DNA of 64,000 nucleotides, from the NCBI GenBank assembly GCA_030427245.1, contig JAUHXA010000007.1, positions 62,001 through 126,000 of the forward strand, read 5' to 3'. The notes beneath the pieces were generated by a model that saw only the letters and a program-made list of their open reading frames with translations, had not been told where the DNA came from and did not search any database. Within the stretch, counting starts at the first letter, position 1. Each line of letters opens with the position of its first letter. Source of the DNA: Bacteroidia bacterium. Its GTDB lineage: Bacteria > Bacteroidota > Bacteroidia > Chitinophagales > UBA2359. Both the position numbers and the translations under genes were made by a program. Below are positions 7,310-51,564 of the stretch, one piece after another.

Positions 7310-8158
7310 GTGCAGATATTTAACAAAGTAGCTGGTTTACAGGTTTTTTTAAAAACAAAAAAAGTTGAAAATAAGCGAATAGGCTTTGTTCCTACCATGG
7401 GAGCTTTACATAATGGGCATTTATCATTGATTGCCCAATCCAAAGCTGCAACAGATGTGACAGTTTGCAGTATTTTTGTCAATCCTACCCAATTTGATGA
7501 TGCAGGAGACTTAAAAAAATATCCAAGAACAACCGAAAACGATATTGCCTTATTGAAGGAAAAAGCGTGTGATGTCTTGTTTTTACCTACCGTTGAAGAA
7601 ATTTATCCTCCTAATATGACCATAGCATCCGATTACGATTTTGGCTATTTAGAAAAACCCATGGAGGGGGCACATCGTCAAGGTCACTTCAAAGGAGTTG
7701 CACAAGTTGTCAATCGTTTGTTAGATATTGTACAGCCCAATCAATTGTTTATGGGACAGAAAGACTATCAACAGTTCAAAATTATTGGAAAATTATTGGA
7801 GCTAACCAAAAGTGACGTGAAACTCGTCAAGTGCGATATTGTACGAGAAAAAGATGGATTGGCAATGAGTTCTCGAAATGCTCGACTGTCTGCTGAACAA
7901 CGCCAAAAAGCCCCCTTTATCTACCAAACCCTTCAATGGGTGAAAAGTCAATATGATGTTGATACACCTAAATCTATTGAAGTAGAGGCTATTCAAAAGT
8001 TGAATCAAGTAGAAGGTTTTGATACGGACTATTTGAAGATAGTAAATGCTGAAACTCTTCAAGAAGTAGCGTCTTGGCAAGAGACCGACCAACTCATTGT
8101 TTGTACAGCCGTAAGATTGGGCGAAATTCGTTTGATAGACAATATCTTGTTCCAATAG
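7310..8158 (+). CDS. panC: Pantoate-beta-alanine ligase (pantothenate synthetase)
   Basis: ATP-dependent condensation of pantoate with beta-alanine to pantothenate, the last step of vitamin B5 synthesis. Motifs: FVPTMGALHNGHLSL (HxGH nucleotide-binding), FVNPTQFD, GQKDYQQ and REKDGLAMSSRNARLS. The longest frame opens at a TTG (7250), which adds a hydrophobic extension not found in PanC. I prefer the GTG at 7310 (VQIFNKVAGLQVFLK), giving 282 residues, the family length. There is no ATG before the first conserved block. panD follows 161 bases downstream and supplies the beta-alanine. Confidence 0.94.
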   Translation: MQIFNKVAGLQVFLKTKKVENKRIGFVPTMGALHNGHLSLIAQSKAATDVTVCSIFVNPTQFDDAGDLKKYPRTTENDIALLKEKACDVLFLPTVEEIYPPNMTIASDYDFGYLEKPMEGAHRQGHFKGVAQVVNRLLDIVQPNQLFMGQKDYQQFKIIGKLLELTKSDVKLVKCDIVREKDGLAMSSRNARLSAEQRQKAPFIYQTLQWVKSQYDVDTPKSIEVEAIQKLNQVEGFDTDYLKIVNAETLQEVASWQETDQLIVCTAVRLGEIRLIDNILFQ

Positions 8159-8283
8159 GTGAAAAATTAGTAGCTAAAATTGGCAAAGATTTTGATTGAT
8201 TTAATATCATTCACTCTTTTTATCCAACCCTGCCAACTACCAAACCTTTAATCACCTATTCCTATCCTCAACCTAAACAGGTA

Positions 8284-8312
8284 TTGTTTATTATTTTAAT
8301 TTTGTAATTTTG
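8284..8312 (+). promoter_or_regulatory. Putative promoter of panD
   Basis: TTG at 8284-8286, an 18-base spacer, then TAATTTTG at 8305-8312 (exact TAnnTTTG). A second TAATTTTG directly abuts it at 8297-8304. The proximal box ends only seven bases before the panD ATG, so the start site would fall at or next to the start codon. Confidence 0.55.
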
Positions 8313-8319
8313 CAGCCTT

Positions 8320-8700
8320 ATGTTTATTGAAGTATTCAAATCTAAAATTCATCGAGCTTCGGTCACACAAGCGGACCTAAACTATATTGGTAGTATCACT
8401 ATTGATGAAGCCTTGATGGAAGCGGCAAATATGATAGAAGGGGAAAAAGTCCAAATTGTTAATTGCAATAACGGTGAACGACTTGAAACCTACACCATTA
8501 AGGGCGAACGCAATTCTGGTGTAATTTGTCTCAATGGTGCTGCTGCTCGCAAAGTAGCAGTAGGCGACATCGTCATCATCATTGGCTATGGCTTCATGGA
8601 TTTTGAAGAAGCTAAAAATTATAAAGGTGGTACAGCTATCTTTGTAAACGAAAAGAATGAAATCATCCAACAACAACAATTGGCAGAAGTATTTGCTTGA
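8320..8700 (+). CDS. panD: Aspartate 1-decarboxylase
   Basis: 126 residues, the family length. It decarboxylates L-aspartate to beta-alanine, the substrate of PanC. It is a pyruvoyl enzyme: the precursor cleaves itself between Gly24 and Ser25 (YIGS here), and Ser25 becomes the pyruvoyl group. Lys9, His11 and Tyr22 of the active site are in place, as is the NGAAAR loop. The last 44 bases overlap the start of the next membrane-protein gene in another frame. Confidence 0.97.
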
Positions 8701-9739
8701 CATCATCAAGTTTGCCATCTTTTTAGGTTTAGGGATTCTTCTTGTATGGTTGGCAGTCAAAGACTTCTCTCCCAAAGATATAGAAGAAATGAAAACGTCT
8801 TTGAGTGAAGCCAAATATGGATGGCTGTTGCTATCCTGTTGTTTCGCTATTATGAGTCATTTGGTCAGGGCATTGCGTTGGCAAATGATGATTGTCACTT
8901 TTGCCCACAAACCTCGGTTTTCGATTACGACCTTATCTTTAATGATTGGGTACATCGCTAACTTGGCTTTTCCTCGTTTGGGAGAAGTGACGAAGTGTGG
9001 TATTATGACCAAATACGAAGACGTGCCAATAGACAAAATATTTGGTACAGTTGTAACCGATCGCATTATTGATGTACTCCTTCTTTTAATACTCACCGTC
9101 ACCGTTATTTTCCTTCAATTCAATACACTGGGCAACTATTTTATTAAAAACGTTTGGACTCCATTACAGGAAAAAATCGGTTACTTATTAGTTGCCGACA
9201 ATCTTTTTCCTAAAATCTTGGTTATTTTGGTGGCTGTTTTTAGTGCTATTATAGTGTGGTATCTTGCTCGCAACTTCAAAAAAACATCACTTTACCAAAA
9301 AATCTTGAATTTAGTAAAAGGTGTTTGGGTAGGAGTTGTTTCGGTCAAAGAGGTAAGCAATATGCCTCTGTTCATTTTTTACTCCTTGTTTATTTGGGTC
9401 ATGTATTTCTTCATGATTTACTCCTGCTTCTTTTCTCTTTCTGCTACTGAAAATTTAGGAGTTGGTGCAGCTTTGGCTTGTTTGGTATTCGGAACTTTCG
9501 GATTCTTGACCACACAAGGAGGCATTGGAGCATATCCTTTAGCGATTGCAGGAACGCTTGCTTTGTATGGCATTGACTTCAATCCTGCTTATGCTTTTGG
9601 ATGGATTGCTTGGTTGTCTCAAACGGTGTTGATTCTCTTTGCAGGTTTGGTGGCTTTGGGGGTCTTACCACTTTTTAAGATGAGGAATGAAGTAATTGGT
9701 ATCAAGGGCGAAGAATTGAAGGTGGGAGGTCAAATTTAA
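8657..9739 (+). CDS. Flippase-like integral membrane protein (UPF0104 / lysylphosphatidylglycerol synthase TM-region family)
   Basis: 360 residues with about eight hydrophobic membrane segments (first at ~14-33, [16 protein letters not shown]). The family signature region is seen: [43 protein letters not shown] and [10 protein letters not shown]. Members include the membrane half of MprF and YbhN-like proteins; the lipid moved by this one is unknown. The ATG at 8657 lies inside panD, so the two genes overlap by 44 bases and are probably translationally linked. The N-terminal [10 protein letters not shown] fits a short cytoplasmic tail. Confidence 0.85.
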
Positions 9740-9762
9740 AATCAAGCATAAAAATTCACAAA

Positions 9763-9864
9763 TCAAATATCGTCTATCATAAATCGTAAATCCTTACCAT
9801 AAGTTTCTCCTGAAAAATGCACGGATTTAAGAGGTTGGATTACATGATTTGTGATATTTGATTT
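9763..9864. repeat. Intergenic inverted repeat related to the one at 39285
   Basis: AAATCAAATATC at 9760-9771 is the reverse complement of GATATTTGATTT at 9853-9864, and GATTTGTG/CACAAATC pair as well. The left arm, TCAAATATCGTCTATC (9763-9778), reappears with one change at 39285-39300, also just past the stop of a rightward gene. Its function is unknown; it may be a small dispersed intergenic repeat. Confidence 0.4.
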
Positions 9865-9929
9865 TCACACACAAGTACCAACCCAAACACACCTATCAAC
9901 ACAAGCACATAAACACAACAAAAAGTAAA

Positions 9930-10406
9930 ATGCTCTCTTACCTCCAACAAAAAACACTTTCCCCATCTCAACTTCAAACAAAACTGTCTCGTTGGCGTTT
10001 TCAAGACCGAAAAATCGTGTTTACCAACGGCTGTTTCGACCTCATTCACAAAGGACATATTCACAACCTCGCTACTGCAAGAGCCTTGGGAGACAAGTTG
10101 ATAGTGGGATTGAACAGCGATGCATCTGTCAAAAGATTGAAAGGGGAAAGTCGTCCTCTTCAGTCCGAAAACGACCGAGCTTTGATTTTGGCTGCAATGG
10201 TGTTTGTGGATGCAGTGGTAATTTTTGAAGAAGACACTCCCTTCAATTTGATACAATTGGTTCAGCCCGATGTATTGGCGAAAGGTGGTGACTACCAAAA
10301 ACATGAAGTCGTTGGAGCAGATATTGTAGAAGCCAAAGGTGGAGAAGTCGTTTTGATTCCTTTTGTGAAAGGACATTCTACTACTCAGATATTGCAGAAG
10401 AGGTGA
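9930..10406 (+). CDS. rfaE2: D-glycero-beta-D-manno-heptose 1-phosphate adenylyltransferase
   Basis: 158 residues from the ATG at 9930. The frame can be extended to a TTG at 9858, but that only adds a low-complexity basic stretch. It transfers AMP to heptose 1-phosphate to give ADP-heptose for the LPS inner core. It has the nucleotidyltransferase motif [17 protein letters not shown] (HxGH) and [14 protein letters not shown], as in the C-terminal domain of E. coli HldE. Here that domain is separate, and no kinase domain (RfaE1) is in the window. Confidence 0.93.
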
Positions 10407-10579
10407 GAAATCATGTAACTTTGTAGAAAAAAGGAATTAAACGTTATTTAAAACACTTTACCTATTTCAAATTTCGTCTAACTCATCCACAGGATTCTTA
10501 CAGAATGACAAATTAAAGAGTATGTCATATTGTAAATATCGTGTGAGGAAATATCAATAAATTGCATTTAGTAAAAAAG

Positions 10580-10660
10580 AAAAAATAACTCATCGACCAA
10601 TATTCCCCTTTTGAAAGGGGATGGGGTATGTTAGCAAAAGAAAACGAGGAGTTATTTTTT
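10580..10660. repeat. 81-bp nested stem-loop with perfect 12-bp terminal inverted repeats
   Basis: AAAAAATAACTC (10580-10591) pairs perfectly with GAGTTATTTTTT (10649-10660). Inside is a second hairpin CCCCTT/AAGGGG (10605-10620), whose flank (ATTCCCC, GGGGATGGGGT) resembles the inverted repeat at 56055-56134. The right arm ends in a T-run, so on the plus strand it can act as a terminator for rfaE2; the perfect ends would also fit a tiny MITE. The remaining sequence of the 365-base gap 10407-10771 holds no gene; an A/T-rich pgk leader lies at its right end. Confidence 0.55.
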
Positions 10661-10771
10661 TACCCTTACTTAATGGATAAACTTTGATAAAAAACATTCA
10701 ATTAATTTTTAAATGTCAATAATTCCATCCTACTTTTAACTTAAAACAAACATAAAACCAATTAAATTAGA

Positions 10772-11965
10772 ATGCGAACCATTAACAATCACAATTTTAA
10801 GAATCAAAAAGCATTGATGAGAGTGGACTTCAATGTGCCACTTAATGACAGTCTTGAAGTCACCGACAACAACCGCATACAAGGTGCATTGCCGAGCATC
10901 CAAAAAATATTGAAGGATGGCGGAGCTGTTGTTTTGATGTCTCATTTGGGGCGACCAAAGGGCAAAGCCTCCGACAAATATTCGCTCAAACATGTTGTAG
11001 AAGAAGCTTCTAAACTGCTTGGTCAGGAAGTTAAATTTGTAGCTGAATGTGTAGGAGAGGAGGTGCAAAAAGCCGTTTCTGCACTGCAAAAAGGAGAGGT
11101 ATTATTGTTGGAAAATTTACGATTTCATGCTGAGGAAGAAAAAGGCGAGACAGCTTTTGCAAAGCAATTGGCAGATTTGGGCTGTGATGTGTATGTGAAC
11201 GATGCTTTTGGAACAGCACACCGAGCGCACGCTTCAACGCACACAGTTGCCCAGTTTTTTGATGCCGACAAACGCATGTTTGGCTTGTTGATGGCAGCGG
11301 AGCTGGAAAATGCCCAAAAGGTGATGCACAATCCTGCCCGACCATTTACCGCTATTCTCGGAGGTGCAAAGGTTTCGGACAAAATCCTATTGATTGAAAA
11401 CATGCTCGACAAGGTGGACAAACTCATCATTGGCGGCGGTATGGCATATACTTTTCACAAGGCGCAAGGTGGCAGAATCGGCAGTTCGCTTTGTGAGGAT
11501 GACAAATTGGACTTGGCAAAAGAGCTCTTGCAGAAAGCAGCCGAAGCGGGTGTGGAATTGTTAATTCCCTACGATTCAGTGATTGCAGATGCATTCTCAA
11601 ATGAGGCAAATATCGAAATGGCTTCGAGTCAAAGCATTCCCGATGGTTGGATGGGGTTGGACATTGGTACGAATGCCCGACAACATTTTGCGAAGGTGAT
11701 TGAAGAATCCAAAACGATTTTGTGGAATGGACCAATGGGCGTTTTTGAGATGTCCAATTTTGAAGCAGGTACTAAGACTGTTGCAGAAGCAGTAGTCCGA
11801 GCTACTCAAAATGGGGCTTACTCCTTGATTGGCGGTGGTGATTCGGCTGCTGCAATTCGACAGTTTGGTTTTGAGGATGAGGTAAGCTATGTTTCGACTG
11901 GCGGCGGGGCAATGTTGGAATTGTTGGAGGGGAAAGAATTACCTGGGATAAAGGCGATGGGCTAA
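10772..11965 (+). CDS. pgk: Phosphoglycerate kinase
   Basis: 397 residues, the standard length. It catalyses 1,3-bisphosphoglycerate + ADP to 3-phosphoglycerate + ATP in glycolysis. Signatures: RVDFNVPL near residue 17, SHLGRPKG near 57, [39 protein letters not shown] (hinge) and [13 protein letters not shown] near the C-terminus (nucleotide phosphate loop). It is transcribed alone; a strong terminator follows 55 bases past the stop. Confidence 0.98.
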
Positions 11966-12019
11966 TTTGGTGGACTGGTGACTCGTTTTTAATAGACAAA
12001 AAAATGAAATGAAATTTGG

Positions 12020-12057
12020 AAATCGAACAATGCGAATGGGTGTTGTTCGATTTTTTT
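12020..12057 (+). terminator. Intrinsic terminator of pgk
   Basis: An 11-bp perfect stem, AAATCGAACAA (12020-12030) with TTGTTCGATTT (12043-12053), runs into seven T. It lies in the convergent gap between pgk and the thioredoxin-like gene. Confidence 0.88.
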
Positions 12058-12126
12058 ATTAAAAAAGGCAACAACCTCTATAACCATGATTGTCACCTTT
12101 TTATTTTGTGAATTTCATTAAAATAC

Positions 12127-12741
12127 CTACTTATTCCACTCCTTCAATAAGTCCTCCAATTCCTGTTGAGTAGTCTGCGTTTTATCCCTTGCATACCAAA
12201 TCTGCAAACGTTTGCCAAACTCGGCATAAGTTTCATCGGGATTTGCTTTGAATTCGTACAAAAGTTCTTGGGCAGGAGTAGGACGAGGTCCCCAAGTGCC
12301 GATTTCCTCCAAAGTAGCTGCTTCCAAAACAATCAATTTTGGAATACCCCTTGCGCCATCGGTCAAATAAGCATCCATCACCTCCAAATTGTCGTCTCTC
12401 AGAATGAACTTCAAGTCAATATTGGAGCTTTCATTTGCCATTGCAGCCAAAATCGGTACAGTTTGAGCTGCATCACCACACCAACCTTCCGAAATAACCA
12501 ACCAAATTTGAGGAGTATCGATTGCAGTCAATTGCTCTTTTAGACTCTCATTTAGTTTGGCACGCTTATCCAATCGGTTCATGCGGGTTACATTCAGTTC
12601 GGTGTAATTGGTCATAGCTTCTGACTGATTTGGCCCTGTTGTTTTACCCTCTGCCAATAAGTCGTCTATCAATTGACGGTAGCCTTCGTAGGTCATTGCA
12701 TTTTCGATGACTTTGGGTGTGATTACATTCGTTTGAATCAT
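12127..12741 (-). CDS. Thioredoxin-fold family protein (single-cysteine type)
   Basis: 204 residues, cytoplasmic (no signal peptide). The central part (about 75-175) has the thioredoxin fold pattern: QIWLVISEGWCGDAAQTVPIL with one catalytic-position Cys (WCGDA instead of WCxxC), and the cis-proline segment RGIPKLIVL. It resembles the thioredoxin_9 group, whose members keep only the first Cys. The N-terminal ~70 residues are helical and charged. Its reaction is unknown; a monothiol or peroxiredoxin-partner role is possible. It reads leftward, convergent with pgk, with its own upstream gap of 159 bases. Confidence 0.8.
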   Translation of the reverse strand: MIQTNVITPKVIENAMTYEGYRQLIDDLLAEGKTTGPNQSEAMTNYTELNVTRMNRLDKRAKLNESLKEQLTAIDTPQIWLVISEGWCGDAAQTVPILAAMANESSNIDLKFILRDDNLEVMDAYLTDGARGIPKLIVLEAATLEEIGTWGPRPTPAQELLYEFKANPDETYAEFGKRLQIWYARDKTQTTQQELEDLLKEWNK

Positions 12742-46800: not shown

Positions 46801-48162
46801 ATGTGGAAGCTTATAAAATATACGTTTTTTCTTTTTATTCTATTCTTATTCTTATTCTTATTCATAACTTTTTTTACATTAAATAAGGGTGTAAGCTCAT
46901 CTACAAGAGATGGTGAGTATAATGAATTTCTTGTTAAAGGAAATATAGCTTTTTCTAGAGGAGATTTTAACGATGCAATAAATTATTATGAAATGGCTTG
47001 GCTATATAATAAAACTGATTTAATACAAAAAAAACTTATAGAATGTCGAAACAGAATAGCACTTACAAAAGAAGAAACTCCGTTGCTTCAACAAATAAAT
47101 AGAGAGGTTGAACTAATCCCAAAAGAAATCCATGACTTAGGAATAGTGACTCCTATCTTTAGTGATACAATAATGCTTTTGGATAGTATTTATTATGCGA
47201 AGTTAAGAATAGGCAAACCTAATACATTCTCTCATTTAGAACCTTTTTTTGAAAAAAAATTAAGTAAAAAAGAAAAGCAAATTTCAATTACATCTGCAGA
47301 TGTAATTGAAATAACTTCTGAGATGAAAGCAGAGCTAAGAGATGTATATAAAGCATTTGAAATTGAGGCATTATCTGAATCAATACAAGGTATTGATACC
47401 ATAGAATATACACAATGGGAATGGGCTATTAAGCCTATAAAAGAAGGCAACTATCCTCTAAAAATTGTTGTTGCAGCAATTAAGACCATTGAAGGAAAAG
47501 AATATCGAAATACAATACCCGTTTATGAAACAAGTATCAATATTCAGAGTAAGGCTAATTACTTTAACCTGTCTATGTATGCTTCTGGGGGAATGGCTAT
47601 ATTGGCACTAATTTTTCTTTTTGTAAAAAAAAGAATGACAAAAGATAAGATTGAACAAAGGGCTACTTTTTGGAAAGCTGCAACTCAAGATAGCCCCAAA
47701 AATATTTTTGTGATTTATGCCGATGAAGATTCCAATTTTGCAGATAAGTTCTATACCAATCTATATAGTCTGATTAGGGGAGGGTTTATTACACTTTGGT
47801 ATGAAAAAATGATAATGGCATCAGAATTGAGAGCTAAAAAAGTGAATAAACATTTGAATGAAGCAGATATGATAGTTCTATTAATGAGTGGTAATTTCTT
47901 TGCTTCTGATTATTGTGATGAATTATTAGAAAAGGCTATTGAGAGAGAAAAACAAGAGAATGTAATCATCATTCCTGTTTTGATTCGATATTGTACTTGG
48001 GAGATAAGTAAATTGGCGAATTACGAAGTCTTACCTAAAAATAAAGAGCCTATCTCAAGCAATCAATGGAACTCACAAGAACAGGCAATTTATCAAGTTA
48101 TTACGGAAATGGAAGGGATTTTGAATAGTAGAAGTGTGATGAGAGCAAAGTCAGAAAAGTGA
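46801..48162 (+). CDS. Membrane protein with periplasmic domain and C-terminal cytoplasmic TIR domain
   Basis: 453 residues. TM1 5-27; residues 28-256 probably periplasmic, with a TPR-like helical pair (KGNIAFSRGDFNDAINYYEMA, 46-66) and a beta-rich segment whose WEWAIKPIKEGNYPLKI (206-222) resembles extracytoplasmic domains seen in other bacterial TIR and conflict proteins. TM2 257-277; TIR domain 302-440 (NIFVIYADEDSNFADKFYTNL, ADMIVLLMSGNFFASDYCDELLEKAIE), with Glu374 at the usual NADase catalytic position. The domain could cleave NAD or act as a scaffold. The gene is visibly richer in A+T than the macroglobulin gene upstream, a sign of transfer. The duplicated cassette region follows it directly. 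Confidence 0.85.
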   Translation: MWKLIKYTFFLFILFLFLFLFITFFTLNKGVSSSTRDGEYNEFLVKGNIAFSRGDFNDAINYYEMAWLYNKTDLIQKKLIECRNRIALTKEETPLLQQINREVELIPKEIHDLGIVTPIFSDTIMLLDSIYYAKLRIGKPNTFSHLEPFFEKKLSKKEKQISITSADVIEITSEMKAELRDVYKAFEIEALSESIQGIDTIEYTQWEWAIKPIKEGNYPLKIVVAAIKTIEGKEYRNTIPVYETSINIQSKANYFNLSMYASGGMAILALIFLFVKKRMTKDKIEQRATFWKAATQDSPKNIFVIYADEDSNFADKFYTNLYSLIRGGFITLWYEKMIMASELRAKKVNKHLNEADMIVLLMSGNFFASDYCDELLEKAIEREKQENVIIIPVLIRYCTWEISKLANYEVLPKNKEPISSNQWNSQEQAIYQVITEMEGILNSRSVMRAKSEK

Positions 48163-48165
48163 GTT

Positions 48166-48209
48166 CACTTCAACCGTTGTCAAAGTTTGCAACTGTTGAC
48201 AAGGTTTCC
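48166..48209 (+). repeat. Copy E1 of the 44-bp hairpin element
   Basis: Starts CACTTCAACCG and ends GGTTTCC. Hairpin AACC-(g)-TTGTCAA-AGTT, loop TGC, AACT-(g)-TTGACAA-GGTT, with one unpaired G on each side of the stem. It is identical over all 44 bases to E2 (48353-48396). It begins three bases after the TIR gene's stop and sits at the left edge of a broken DUF2281-like module. Confidence 0.88.
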
Positions 48210-48352
48210 ATTATTTCGGTCTTTATTATTAGAAATCAACCAATTGAAGTCTTTGGCTACTGTTCCTTCTCTATCTGCTATTGAAAAATACCAACAACTT
48301 CCCAAAGAATTACAGCAGCAAGTAGCTGATTATATTGATTTTGTGGCGGGGT
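48210..48352 (+). pseudogene. Tail fragment of the TPR-like/DUF2281 gene, bracketed by E1 and E2
   Basis: Reads RSLLLEINQLKSLATVPSL then SAIEKYQQLPKELQQQVADY and IDFVAG. This is the C-terminal half of the intact protein at 50433-50897 (SPIEKYQQLPKELQEQVADF) with several substitutions. It has no start of its own: the open frame only begins inside E1 and runs on through E2. The DUF2281-like tail (LPKELQxQVADxIDFV) resembles antitoxin-like small proteins. A displaced module rather than a gene. Confidence 0.75.
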
Positions 48353-48396
48353 CACTTCAACCGTTGTCAAAGTTTGCAACTGTTGACAAGGTTTCC
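48353..48396 (+). repeat. Copy E2 of the 44-bp hairpin element
   Basis: Identical to E1. It is placed directly after the GATTTTGTGGCGG end of the DUF2281-like module, the same relative site at which E4 lies after the second module. Confidence 0.88.
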
Positions 48397-48400
48397 GTTA

Positions 48401-48499
48401 TTGCGGTCTTTGTTGGTAGAAATCAATCAATTGAAATCTTTTACTACTTTTGTAAAACTCTCGCCTATTGAGGGGTTAATGAAAATGCTGACCAAGTGA
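48401..48499 (+). pseudogene. Second tail fragment of a TPR-like cassette gene, with a different C-terminus
   Basis: Directly after E2 another reading frame gives LRSLLVEINQLKSFTTFVKL, then SPIEGLMKMLTK and a stop. Its first half matches the same LRSLLLEINQLK segment, but the tail replaces the DUF2281-like end by a shorter one. The stop lies one base before the ATG of the next gene, the spacing expected if a complete TPR-like gene once preceded that cassette. Confidence 0.6.
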
Positions 48500-48500
48500 T

Positions 48501-49043
48501 ATGAAACAACTGCGAGACTTTCTAATCGAACAACTAAAAAATCTGATACCCACCTTATCCGCTGCCCAATGTGATTATTATGCAGAAGCCTGTATTATCG
48601 CTTTAGAAAACCAAAGACATCAATCAAATGTTGAGTTAAAAGTTATTGGAGATTTTCAAGACCGCTTTAGGTTGAAATGGGAAACGACTCCCAATAAGAA
48701 GGGGTGGTCAGAACCAAGAGTGATTGCAGAGAATGGCAGTATTGCGATTGCCTTCTTTTTGATAGTCGAACTTACCGATTATCAAGTAATTCAACAGTCC
48801 ATCATTGGGACAGGATTTGATTACTGGTTGGGATATAAAGAAACACACCCTGATTATGACCCCAATAATTTTTTGAATGCAAGATTGGAAATTTCTGGAA
48901 TCAACAGAGGAAGTCGAGGAGAGTTGAATCAAAGGGTAAAACAGAAACTACAGCAAGTAGGTGTAACGGATTACCTCAAAATTCCCGCTTATATTGTTGT
49001 TACTGAATTTAGTCGTCCAATTTGTAAAATTGTAAAAAAATGA
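48501..49043 (+). CDS. Cassette protein A, copy 1 (unknown family, GTGFDYWLG motif)
   Basis: 180 residues, soluble. Homologous along its length to the 177-residue protein at 49903-50436. Shared features: Cys-Tyr-Ala-Glu near residue 27 (YYAEACIIALENQ), VELKVIGDF, an acidic-aromatic strand (RLKWETTP), a hydrophobic helix (IAIAFFLIVELTDYQVI), GTGFDYWLG (109-117), RLEISGI and, at the end, LKIPAYIVVTEFSRPICKIVKK. I recall similar pairs in cyanobacteria but know no named function; the fold looks alpha/beta. Its stop overlaps the next start by ATGA, so the two are translationally coupled. Confidence 0.72.
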   Translation: MKQLRDFLIEQLKNLIPTLSAAQCDYYAEACIIALENQRHQSNVELKVIGDFQDRFRLKWETTPNKKGWSEPRVIAENGSIAIAFFLIVELTDYQVIQQSIIGTGFDYWLGYKETHPDYDPNNFLNARLEISGINRGSRGELNQRVKQKLQQVGVTDYLKIPAYIVVTEFSRPICKIVKK

Positions 49044-49381
49044 GCCAAGCACAAAATTTACACATCGAAGCTATGCAAAAAGCAGCAGATGCTTTTGCAG
49101 CACAACGTTCTGGTAACTACCACGAATACCTGCAATTGACAAAAGAAGCCTTTGAAAAGGAAAAAGAAGCTGCTTGGTTGCTGTTTCACAAGACAAAAGC
49201 AGAACCTACTCGCTCTGTATTGTTTCGTAGTGCTGCTCAGTTGGCATTTAATTGTGGTAAAATGCGAGAAGCAGAGCAGTTGATTTCAGCAGCCTTAGCA
49301 GGAAACCCGCCATTGGAAATATTGCGAGAATTGCGTTTGTTGTATAGAGAAGTATTGGATACATTTGAGTTAGCTGCATGA
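49040..49381 (+). CDS. Cassette protein B, copy 1 (small helical TPR-like protein)
   Basis: 113 residues, all helical. NLHIEAMQKAADAFAAQRSG, YLQLTKEAFEKEKEAAWLL, EPTRSVLFRSAAQLAFNCG, KMREAEQLISAALAGNPPLE: two to three TPR-like helical hairpins, with the EPTRSVLxRSAA and AGNPP signatures shared with the B protein at 50433. The starting ATG overlaps the A stop by four bases. This copy ends soon after the AGNPP segment and lacks the DUF2281-like tail. It may be an adaptor for protein A. Confidence 0.75.
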   Translation: MSQAQNLHIEAMQKAADAFAAQRSGNYHEYLQLTKEAFEKEKEAAWLLFHKTKAEPTRSVLFRSAAQLAFNCGKMREAEQLISAALAGNPPLEILRELRLLYREVLDTFELAA

Positions 49382-49393
49382 AATAGCAATACG

Positions 49394-49774
49394 ATGAACA
49401 ATCCCGAAAAGTCAATAACTTACACGAACAAGCAATGACAATTGCAGATGAAGCCTTTTTAGCAGAAAGAGCTAAGGAAACAGATAAAGTAGTTGGGTTG
49501 TACCAACAAGCTTTTGAGTTGGAAAAACAAGCAGAGAATCACTCCAACCGTTGCCAAAGTTTCCAACTGTTGACAAGGTTTCCGTTTAGTTTTTGGCTTT
49601 GTCGGGTAATCCTCCTATTCAGATTGGAGAAGAATTGCGGTCTTTATTGTTGGAAATCAATCAACTGAAAGCTTCGGAGAACCTTCCTTCTTTGTCTCCA
49701 ATCGAAAAATACCAACAGCTTCCTAAAGAACTGCAAGAGCAGGTAGCGGATTTTATTGATTTTGTGGTGGATTC
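49394..49774 (+). pseudogene. Broken cassette gene B (frameshift, internal deletion, element E3 inserted)
   Basis: The first ~145 bases repeat 50433-50574 (start ATGAACAATCCCGAAAA, versus ATGAAAAATCCCGAAAAA in the intact copy). One A is missing in the A-run, shifting the frame after codon 5. About 115 bases of the intact gene (helices around AMTMVLDYEIEPSRSVLFKG) are absent, and the 44-bp element E3 stands in their place. After E3 the sequence resumes as LALSGNPPIQIGEEL and runs to the DUF2281-like IDFVVD, nearly identical to the intact copy. Even the five last codons of a gene A copy precede it, so this is a segmental duplicate. Confidence 0.85.
49540..49583 (+). repeat. Copy E3 of the 44-bp hairpin element
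   Basis: Same length and ends as E1 with three substitutions (CTCC for CTTC, TTGCC for TTGTC, loop TCC for TGC). One stem pair is lost, so it is slightly weaker. It lies inside the broken gene B. Confidence 0.87.
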
Positions 49775-49818
49775 CACTTCAACCGTTGTCAAAGTTTGCA
49801 ACTCTTGACAAGGTTTTC
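49775..49818 (+). repeat. Copy E4 of the 44-bp hairpin element
   Basis: Differs from E1 at two positions only: the unpaired base (G to C) on the right side and one base of the terminal GGTTTCC. The stem is intact. It lies immediately after the DUF2281-like end of the broken gene B, as E2 does. Confidence 0.87.
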
Positions 49819-49902
49819 GTTTAAATATTTTCTCTTTGCATCCAATTTTGAAAATCCAAATAGAAAATCTATTTTCAGCCTTTCTAAACCAATCTACAAC
49901 AA

Positions 49903-50436
49903 ATGTCCATTGACAAAATCAATATCTACTCGCTAAAAGACCAGAGTTATATTCCCTCTCCTCGTGTGAGTGATTGTTATGCAGAGACAGCTTCTGTTTG
50001 TTTAGAAAATCAAAACCATAAAAAGGGGGTAGAAATTGAAGTTTCGGGGGATGTATCTGCAAAGGTTCAACTCGAATGGGAAGATGTTGACCAACAAATT
50101 CGAGACAATTGGAGGGATTTGCAAGAAGCAACAGAATATGGTGCTACTTGTTTGGCAATATTATTGGTTCAGATTTTAACAGATTACAAAGTCATACGAC
50201 GTTCTCCCAAAAGGACAGGTTTTGATTATTGGTTGGGCGAAAAGAAGGATACTTTTCCCTTTCAAGAAAAAGCAAGGCTCGAAATATCAGGAATTTTGAA
50301 AGGAACAAATGCCCAAATCAACCAAAGATTAAAAGAAAAATTGGAGCAAACCAAAAAAAGTGATGCTCTGAACTTACCCGCCTATGTAGTTGTTGTAGAG
50401 TTTAGTAAACCTGTCTGTAAAATAGCAATACGATGA
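49903..50436 (+). CDS. Cassette protein A, copy 2 (unknown family, GTGFDYWLG-type motif)
   Basis: 177 residues. Homologue of the protein at 48501-49043: DCYAETASVCLENQNHKKG, VEIEVSGDV, QLEWEDVDQQ, TCLAILLVQILTDYKVI, RTGFDYWLG, ARLEISGILKGTNAQINQRL, NLPAYVVVVEFSKPVCKIAIR. The two copies are clearly diverged in sequence, so the duplication is old, unlike the near-identical B fragments. Conserved Cys-Tyr-Ala-Glu and Asp-Tyr-Trp-Leu-Gly are the best candidates for functional residues. Function unknown. The stop overlaps the next start by ATGA. Confidence 0.72.
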   Translation: MSIDKINIYSLKDQSYIPSPRVSDCYAETASVCLENQNHKKGVEIEVSGDVSAKVQLEWEDVDQQIRDNWRDLQEATEYGATCLAILLVQILTDYKVIRRSPKRTGFDYWLGEKKDTFPFQEKARLEISGILKGTNAQINQRLKEKLEQTKKSDALNLPAYVVVVEFSKPVCKIAIR

Positions 50437-50897
50437 AAAATCCCGAAAAAGTCAATAACTTACACGAACAAGCAATGACAATTGCAGATGAAGCCTTTTT
50501 AGCAGAAAGAGCTAAAAAGACAGATAAAGCAGTTGAATTGTACCAACAAGCTTTTGAGTTGGAAAAACAAGCGGCTATGACAATGGTTTTGGACTATGAA
50601 ATAGAGCCAAGCCGTTCGGTTTTGTTCAAAGGCGCAGCTTGTTTGGCGTTGAATGGGAAAAATTACCGAGAGGCAGAACGCATGGTATTTTTGGCTTTGT
50701 CGGGTAATCCTCCTATTCAGATTGGAGAAGAATTGCGGTCTTTATTGTTGGAAATCAATCAACTGAAAGCTTCGGAGAACCTTCCTTCTTTGTCTCCAAT
50801 CGAAAAATACCAACAGCTGCCTAAAGAACTGCAAGAGCAGGTAGCGGATTTTATTGATTTTGTGGTGGTGAAGCGAGGGCTTGTAATGGAGATTTAA
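50433..50897 (+). CDS. Cassette protein B, copy 2 (TPR-like helices plus DUF2281-like tail)
   Basis: 154 residues. Residues 1-105 are the same helical unit as copy 1 (VNNLHEQAMTIADEAFLAER, LYQQAFELEKQAAMTM, EPSRSVLFKGAACLALNG, YREAERMVFLALSGNPPIQ). Residues 108-150 add LRSLLLEINQLKASENLPSL and SPIEKYQQLPKELQEQVADF with IDFVVV, a DUF2281-like helix pair known from small VapB-type antitoxin families. It is the only complete example of this long form in the window and the parent of the fragments at 48210 and 49394. Four-base overlap with gene A. Confidence 0.75.
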   Translation: MKNPEKVNNLHEQAMTIADEAFLAERAKKTDKAVELYQQAFELEKQAAMTMVLDYEIEPSRSVLFKGAACLALNGKNYREAERMVFLALSGNPPIQIGEELRSLLLEINQLKASENLPSLSPIEKYQQLPKELQEQVADFIDFVVVKRGLVMEI

Positions 50898-50942: not shown

Positions 50943-51155
50943 ATGTACATCAATCAGATAATGAACAAGTATCGTCAAGCAAAAAATTTAGAAGACTTAC
51001 TTCAAATAGAATATGGCAAAAGAGGAACTGAAAAACGAGAAGCTTTTGAAGCGAGGTCTAAAGCATTTTATTTCTGTGAAATGCTGAAAGAAAAACGGAA
51101 AGAAGCCAAGTTGTCTCAAAAGTCTTTGGCGGAAAAAGCCGATGTGAAAAATTGA
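50943..51155 (+). pseudogene. Truncated HigA/XRE-type antitoxin remnant
   Basis: 70 codons. EARSKAFYFCEMLKEKRKEA and KLSQKSLAEKADVKN match the start of a HigA-type helix-turn-helix domain (helices 1 and 2), then the frame stops exactly where the recognition helix should begin. No toxin gene precedes it. The stop overlaps the TTG of the following open frame, so the join may be a deletion scar. Confidence 0.6.
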
Positions 51156-51480: not shown

Positions 51481-51564
51481 ATGAACAATCCCAAAAAAGT
51501 CAATAACTTACACGAACAAGCAATGACAATTGCAGATGAAGTCTTTGCAAGAAATTCGTTATGA
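51481..51564 (+). pseudogene. 5' fragment of cassette gene B, third copy
   Basis: Begins with the same leader (AAAATAGCA...ATGAACAATCCC) and reads MNNPKKVNNLHEQAMTIADE, then leaves homology at VFARNSL and stops. Unrelated sequence in another frame (SLQEIRYEDILNQDLS, stop at about 51592) is joined here. It marks the right end of the duplicated region. Confidence 0.7.

Follow-up and report, generated by a model that had tools for sequence, protein, structure and literature searches.

The window, by which we mean the whole stretch of 64,000 nucleotides analyzed here, belongs to a 7.58-Mb Bacteroidota genome (187 contigs) and carries two pairs of small adjoining genes, A1/B1 and A2/B2 (Table 1). 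An ORF check found a 4-base overlap, ATGA, in both pairs (at 49040 and 50433) and the motifs FDYWLG and PAY(I/V)VVxEFS in both A1 and A2, which confirms the two coupled cassettes described in the initial annotation. A1 and A2 are 41–46% identical. The genome holds a third A–B pair on contig C36 (locus L036, 7787–9913), where 4-base overlaps run onward into a gene of the uracil-DNA glycosylase family and a small unknown gene. The antitoxin-like remnant reported downstream of the second pair corresponds to a truncated HTH_3 match; it falls below the cut-off and is probably unrelated to A and B.

Table 1. Features of the A–B locus (positions in the window).
Feature	Position	Strand	Description
TIR-domain protein with hydrophobic segments	46801-48162	+	453 aa; neighbour, probably outside the A–B module
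Two decayed B2-type C-terminal tails, each preceded by a palindromic repeat	48169-48471 (48169-48349, 48352-48471)	+	Repeat families D1, D2, D5
A1	48501-49043	+	180 aa; A-profile E 1.5e-68; fold inferred from the model of the homologue A2
B1	49040-49381	+	113 aa; TPR-like partner, short form; B-profile E 2e-44; ATGA overlap with A1
B2-like pseudogene: B start and tail, palindromic repeat replacing the middle	49393-49770	+	Repeats D1, D3, D4; split B-profile hits
A2	49903-50436	+	177 aa; predicted restriction-endonuclease-like fold (AF2, structure matches, conservation)
B2	50433-50897	+	154 aa; TPR-like partner with DUF2281/VapB-like tail; B-profile E 2.6e-41
DUF2281-like tail of B2	50775-50894	+	Tail form over the Pfam cut-off in the close relative L145
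Truncated HTH_3 (HigA-like) ORF	50943-51155	+	First 22 of 55 profile positions, below cut-off; probably an unrelated remnant
Fragment of a B start, 95% identical to B2	51481-51546	+	Repeat D3

At least three decayed B fragments surround the window pairs, with identities to the B2 tail of up to 99%, which points to local copying of B. We conclude from these sequences that the site is a spot of B copying and breakage. Tandem duplication of one cassette was rejected as the origin of the intact pairs: A1 and A2 are 41% identical to each other, whereas A1 is 57% identical to its nearest relative (the A of locus L068) and A2 76% to its own (the A of L145). On this comparison the window pairs are two distinct lineages of one family lying side by side, with no recent duplication. 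A palindromic repeat of 26 bases, TTGTCAAAGTTTGCAACTGTTGACAA, occurs four times in the window (48177–48202, 48364–48389, 49551–49576 and 49786–49811), one copy lying inside a decayed B gene. Genome-wide it has 21 copies, against 2 for a reversed control, and in several distant copies both stem arms are altered together (TTGACAA/TTGTCAA, TTGCCAA/TTGGCAA).

Searches of Pfam, NCBIfam and PADLOC gave no family match above cut-off for A or B, and PADLOC 2.0.0 returned no family at E values up to 1 for A1, A2, B1 or B2. PHROGs gave no convincing match for A or for a long relative of B. TPR repeat models matched the N-terminal domain (N-domain) of B below cut-off only, and an NCBIfam model of VapB type matched the B2 tail weakly. 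The absence of an assigned function, noted in the initial annotation, holds in every library tried. Sequence kinship of A or B to a solved structure was likewise rejected, the weak TPR match of B being generic. A phage origin of the genes was rejected as well: none of 50,697 phage records matched A or B, and viral contigs gave two hits, one of them a predicted prophage of Phocaeicola vulgatus that ends 3 bases past A.

We modelled A alone, using A2 and an alignment of 20 sequences from which plasmid sequences were left out (pLDDT 94.5, pTM 0.90). The model runs from a helix (residues 73–92) through three strands (95–100, 109–113, 124–131) and a second helix (136–156) to a last strand (160–166), the alpha-beta-beta-beta-alpha-beta core of restriction-endonuclease-like nucleases. 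In Foldseek the leading matches included tRNA splicing endonucleases, nuclease subunits of SPARDA and Holliday junction resolvases, all at marginal E values (best 1.2e-3). The best VIA match was LHK-Exo (Z 7.0, 3.0 Å over 96 residues), followed by SPARDA, Hjc, tRNA splicing endonuclease, lambda exonuclease and EcoRV, all with Z below 8; among viral models, the matches included PD-(D/E)XK, Hjc and RecU proteins. Each of these Z values is middling, yet the matches agree on one fold, and on that agreement we assign A to the restriction-endonuclease-like fold.

W59, D108, S129, G130, K146 and F167 are invariant across the 32 intact A proteins, whose median identity is 33%, while E127 and R142 are each present in 31 and Q149 in 30; the one A without E127, at L161, retains an intact reading frame. 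In the A2 model D108 and E127 occupy the places of the acidic pair of the fold. The canonical D...(D/E)xK motif is absent from A, position 129 being a serine in 32/32. According to the model, A is therefore a member of the restriction-endonuclease-like fold with a variant motif and not a canonical PD-(D/E)XK enzyme. The ExK lysine can change position within this superfamily, and K146, on the next helix, may be its stand-in in A. Such lysine migration is reportedly the subject of Steczkiewicz et al. 2012.

The initial annotation had described B as a small TPR-like helical protein. A full-length relative (366 aa, from L014) was modelled alone with a pLDDT of 89; its N-domain consists of five helices, its middle domain is alpha/beta and its C-terminal domain is built of strands. 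No structure match to the middle domain was singled out from this full-length model. The N-domain matched Sec17 in VIA (Z 14.3, 2.7 Å over 105 residues), a score that helical repeats reach easily. The description would suit the modelled N-domain, whose predicted fold resembles TPR and SNAP proteins; by sequence, B matches TPR models below their cut-offs. A comparison of tails in 54 B proteins found the N-domain to be the sole constant part, followed by no tail or a short one, an OB fold, a middle domain plus OB fold, a DUF2281-like tail or others. The OB fold is predicted for the C-terminal domain of the L014 model, for which Foldseek returned SilF/CusF, IF-1, cold-shock, RPA and Rim1 structures. 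Scored against Pfam, the DUF2281 tail is above cut-off in the L145 protein and just under it in that of L144, and the B of L119 has a weak RelB/ParD-like stretch in its tail; most B proteins carry no antitoxin-family domain. The B of L019 (8528–9433), on a Hymenobacter plasmid, joins the N-domain to a bacterial sugar transferase domain (Pfam E 2.8e-52). We also read an HNH-like stretch in the tail of the L114 protein, by eye and with no Pfam match behind it.

To relate the two genes across genomes we used a survey set of about 50 loci from Bacteroidota and Cyanobacteria. Each of the 32 intact A genes is followed immediately by an intact B, with an exact 4-base overlap in 19 pairs, and no A gene without an adjacent B was found in 395 genomes of one order. 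This constant adjacency, together with the overlaps, argues that the coupling is not due to chance. A and B distances correlate (r 0.49, a value that none of 2000 permutations reached), and both genes are under purifying selection (omega between sister loci 0.125 for A and 0.075 for B). The joint function proposed from the window is therefore strongly supported, pairing being obligate on the side of A. Homologues living mostly apart, which the initial annotation had named as counter-evidence, were not observed for A, and B stands alone in a minority of loci.

Decay of the pair is asymmetric. A is broken beside an intact B at 13 loci, both are broken at one (L044), and an intact A beside a broken B was found at none. 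These counts mix ascertainment, since some loci were collected by searching with B, a procedure biased towards intact B. Among loci found by A query only, broken A outnumbers broken B by 6 to 0 (p ~0.06 by N-domain length, 0.01 by full B length); here the loci are partly related and hence not independent, and assembly errors may account for some of the breaks. When the loci are mapped on the B tree, well-supported branches demand at least 8 separate changes for broken A and at least 7 for absent A, which indicates repeated loss of A with retention of B. A candidate case of selection on B persisting after loss of A was not upheld: the B genes of L046 and L153 give a low omega of 0.09, yet the lesions differ between these loci.

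The reading that we favour, to which we give about an even chance, is that A is a nuclease restrained by its obligate partner B, in a toxin–antitoxin-like or abortive-defence module. It builds on features obtained by computation, namely the pairing, gene order and coupling, the predicted folds, the conservation, the asymmetric decay and the antitoxin-family tail of some B proteins. We infer that A would act as a small nuclease with a variant active site formed by D108, E127-x-S129, K146 (replacing the ExK lysine) and Q149, and that B, made in step with A through translational coupling, would bind A by its TPR-like N-domain and keep it inactive. Anchoring, regulation or sensing would fall to the exchangeable tail of B (an OB fold, a DUF2281-like stretch or others). 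If B were removed, degraded or captured, as might happen when a phage attacks or the locus is lost, A would be freed and could cut nucleic acid. Restraint fits better than recruitment because B outlasts A, A is never found without B, the genes are translationally coupled and some B proteins end in an antitoxin-family tail.

Its main rival, which we regard as rather unlikely, is that B recruits or activates A: the TPR-like domain would dock A while the OB fold or another tail leads it to single-stranded DNA or RNA, B serving as an adaptor in a defence or repair nuclease. Many B proteins do end in a predicted OB fold and exceed A in size, some by far (up to 434 aa), features that a recruiter would readily have and that are unusual in an antitoxin. 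Against this stand the several forms of B without any C-terminal domain and the 13 loci with a broken A, where a recruiter dedicated to A would be needless; the DUF2281 and RelB/ParD-like tails, too, suggest antitoxins. The recruiter reading also gains from the other nucleases that B adjoins, as expected of an adaptor, although the solo B genes behind PIN_12 and REase-NACHT proteins count for restraint too. On the contig of the window, ~16 kb upstream of it (L118), B follows by 66 bases a gene for a 1263-aa NACHT-like protein (8024–12292), whose NACHT match is weak (Pfam E 2e-4, below cut-off) and whose N-terminus appears restriction-endonuclease-like in our own reading, to which no Pfam match corresponds. 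Elsewhere B lies behind a PIN_12 protein (L143, E 8e-29), at L115 after an unknown gene and one resembling EEP nucleases (a Pfam match below cut-off), and, in broken form, between type I RM hsdS and AbiLi/AbiLii (L117). A single well-supported clade of B has directly upstream an intact A (L150), a broken A (L159), the EEP-nuclease operon (L115) or the REase-NACHT gene (L118). It is possible, if doubtful, that the B N-domain is a mobile control unit exchanged between nucleases of unrelated kinds (the A fold, PIN_12, REase-NACHT and EEP), so that one family of helical domains restrains or aims several nuclease folds in bacterial conflict systems.

Restraint of a nuclease has also to be weighed against a patchy accessory role in repair or housekeeping, in which A is either inactive as a nuclease or takes part in ordinary DNA or RNA processing, like Hjc or an exonuclease. 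It would accord with the missing ExK lysine, with Hjc, RecU and lambda-type exonucleases among the structure matches of A, and with the overlap of the third pair of the genome with a uracil-DNA glycosylase-family gene. We nevertheless judge this role improbable, as the D/E/K/Q set is near-invariant and persists in A proteins down to 16% identity, and the distribution of A also speaks against it. A is rare (11/395 genomes of one order, 4/395 in a phylum-wide draw, 4/295 in another order), decays often, and is found in three plasmid lineages (Anabaena, Leptolyngbya and Hymenobacter) and at the edge of the predicted P. vulgatus prophage. B was found in 22/204 genomes of one family.

The genomic surroundings bear on the same alternative. 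Neighbours of the pairs are mostly housekeeping genes, as an accessory role would have it, and do not recur between loci. The conflict or signalling setting suggested by the initial annotation is borne out in part: it finds some support at other loci, with the REase-NACHT, PIN and type I RM/AbiL neighbours of B and the DUF2281 tail, an AbiV gene just upstream of A–B at L035 and an Mrr-nSTAND3 gene downstream of A–B at L070, and is weakened by the housekeeping majority. As separate observations, a divergent stand-alone Hsp70-like gene adjoins B at L119 (2292–5575) and A–B at L068 (10171–12696), and at L153 (1025–2551) an A lacking its N-terminus is immediately preceded by UPF0175 and PIN-like genes, an arrangement that would result if a toxin–antitoxin pair had recombined into the A–B locus.

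The TIR protein upstream of A1 had been read as a membrane protein and as a marker of this setting. Its TIR domain is confirmed (Pfam TIR_2, E 6.7e-12; ThsB-type TIR of PADLOC, E 9e-22), and its hydrophobic segments, at the N-terminus and centre, are read from the sequence; the protein also contains a TPR-like stretch. The domain match recalls ThsB of Thoeris; no ThsA or SIR2-type gene was found among the flanking proteins tested beside the TIR gene. A neighbourhood survey did not bear out the link to A–B: a phmmer search with the window TIR domain found no TIR near A–B in the first 28 loci, none was seen by eye in later loci, and TIR as a recurrent partner was rejected. That TIR, A1, B1, A2 and B2 form one TIR-signalling operon is very improbable: the genes lie near each other on one strand in the window, but between TIR and A1 lie ~340 bases with repeats and remnants of B, the other loci scanned have no TIR near A–B, and the third pair of the genome has none among its neighbours.

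Under the favoured reading, in which B restrains A, the pair would work like a type II toxin–antitoxin or a nuclease–antidote pair such as CinA–CinB. Compared with restriction-endonuclease-like/PD-(D/E)XK nucleases (LHK-Exo, SPARDA, Hjc, tRNA splicing endonuclease), A shares the predicted core, with D opening the second core strand, E on the third and Q on the next helix. It differs by the serine in place of the ExK lysine, the candidate K146 on the helix and an extra N-terminal part, and A found no sequence match in Pfam or the PDB. In Wolbachia CinA–CinB, a helical protein is the antidote of a paired PD-(D/E)XK nuclease. This system serves here as a lead: it resembles A–B in joining a helical partner to a protein of nuclease fold, whereas its proteins are far larger, the helical gene comes first, it acts on host insects and no sequence relation is shown; a CinA–CinB chain (7esz) was a weak Foldseek match to A (E 0.32).

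Type II toxin–antitoxin systems, and VapC/DUF2281 in particular, resemble A–B in their small overlapping genes (which suggest co-translation) and in a partner kept after loss of the putative toxin. A DUF2281 protein neutralizes a VapC in E. coli, where the gene order is inverted with the toxin first (PMC12654330), and a Synechocystis listing places DUF2281 proteins together with PIN toxins (PMC4963859). With the putative toxin A first, A–B has the gene order of that VapC/DUF2281 pair, and B2-type partners carry a DUF2281-like tail. In contrast, the putative toxin A is restriction-endonuclease-like and not PIN, and B is TPR-like and often multi-domain, without a recognized HTH or RHH. The TPR-GreA/B-C-PIN conflict system also combines a TPR module with a nuclease and occurs in cyanobacteria (eLife 2021, PMC8195603). 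It is a single polypeptide with PIN and GreA/B-C domains, both absent from A and B, and a variable N-terminal effector.

If nuclease restraint by B is true, it would name the likely biochemistry of a pair present in ~3% of the sampled genomes of one Bacteroidota order and in Cyanobacteria, and of B in ~11% of one family, for which no curated model was reached in the libraries tried. The toxin–antitoxin and anti-phage repertoire would then gain a nuclease whose active site is a variant one, together with helical partners of a new class.
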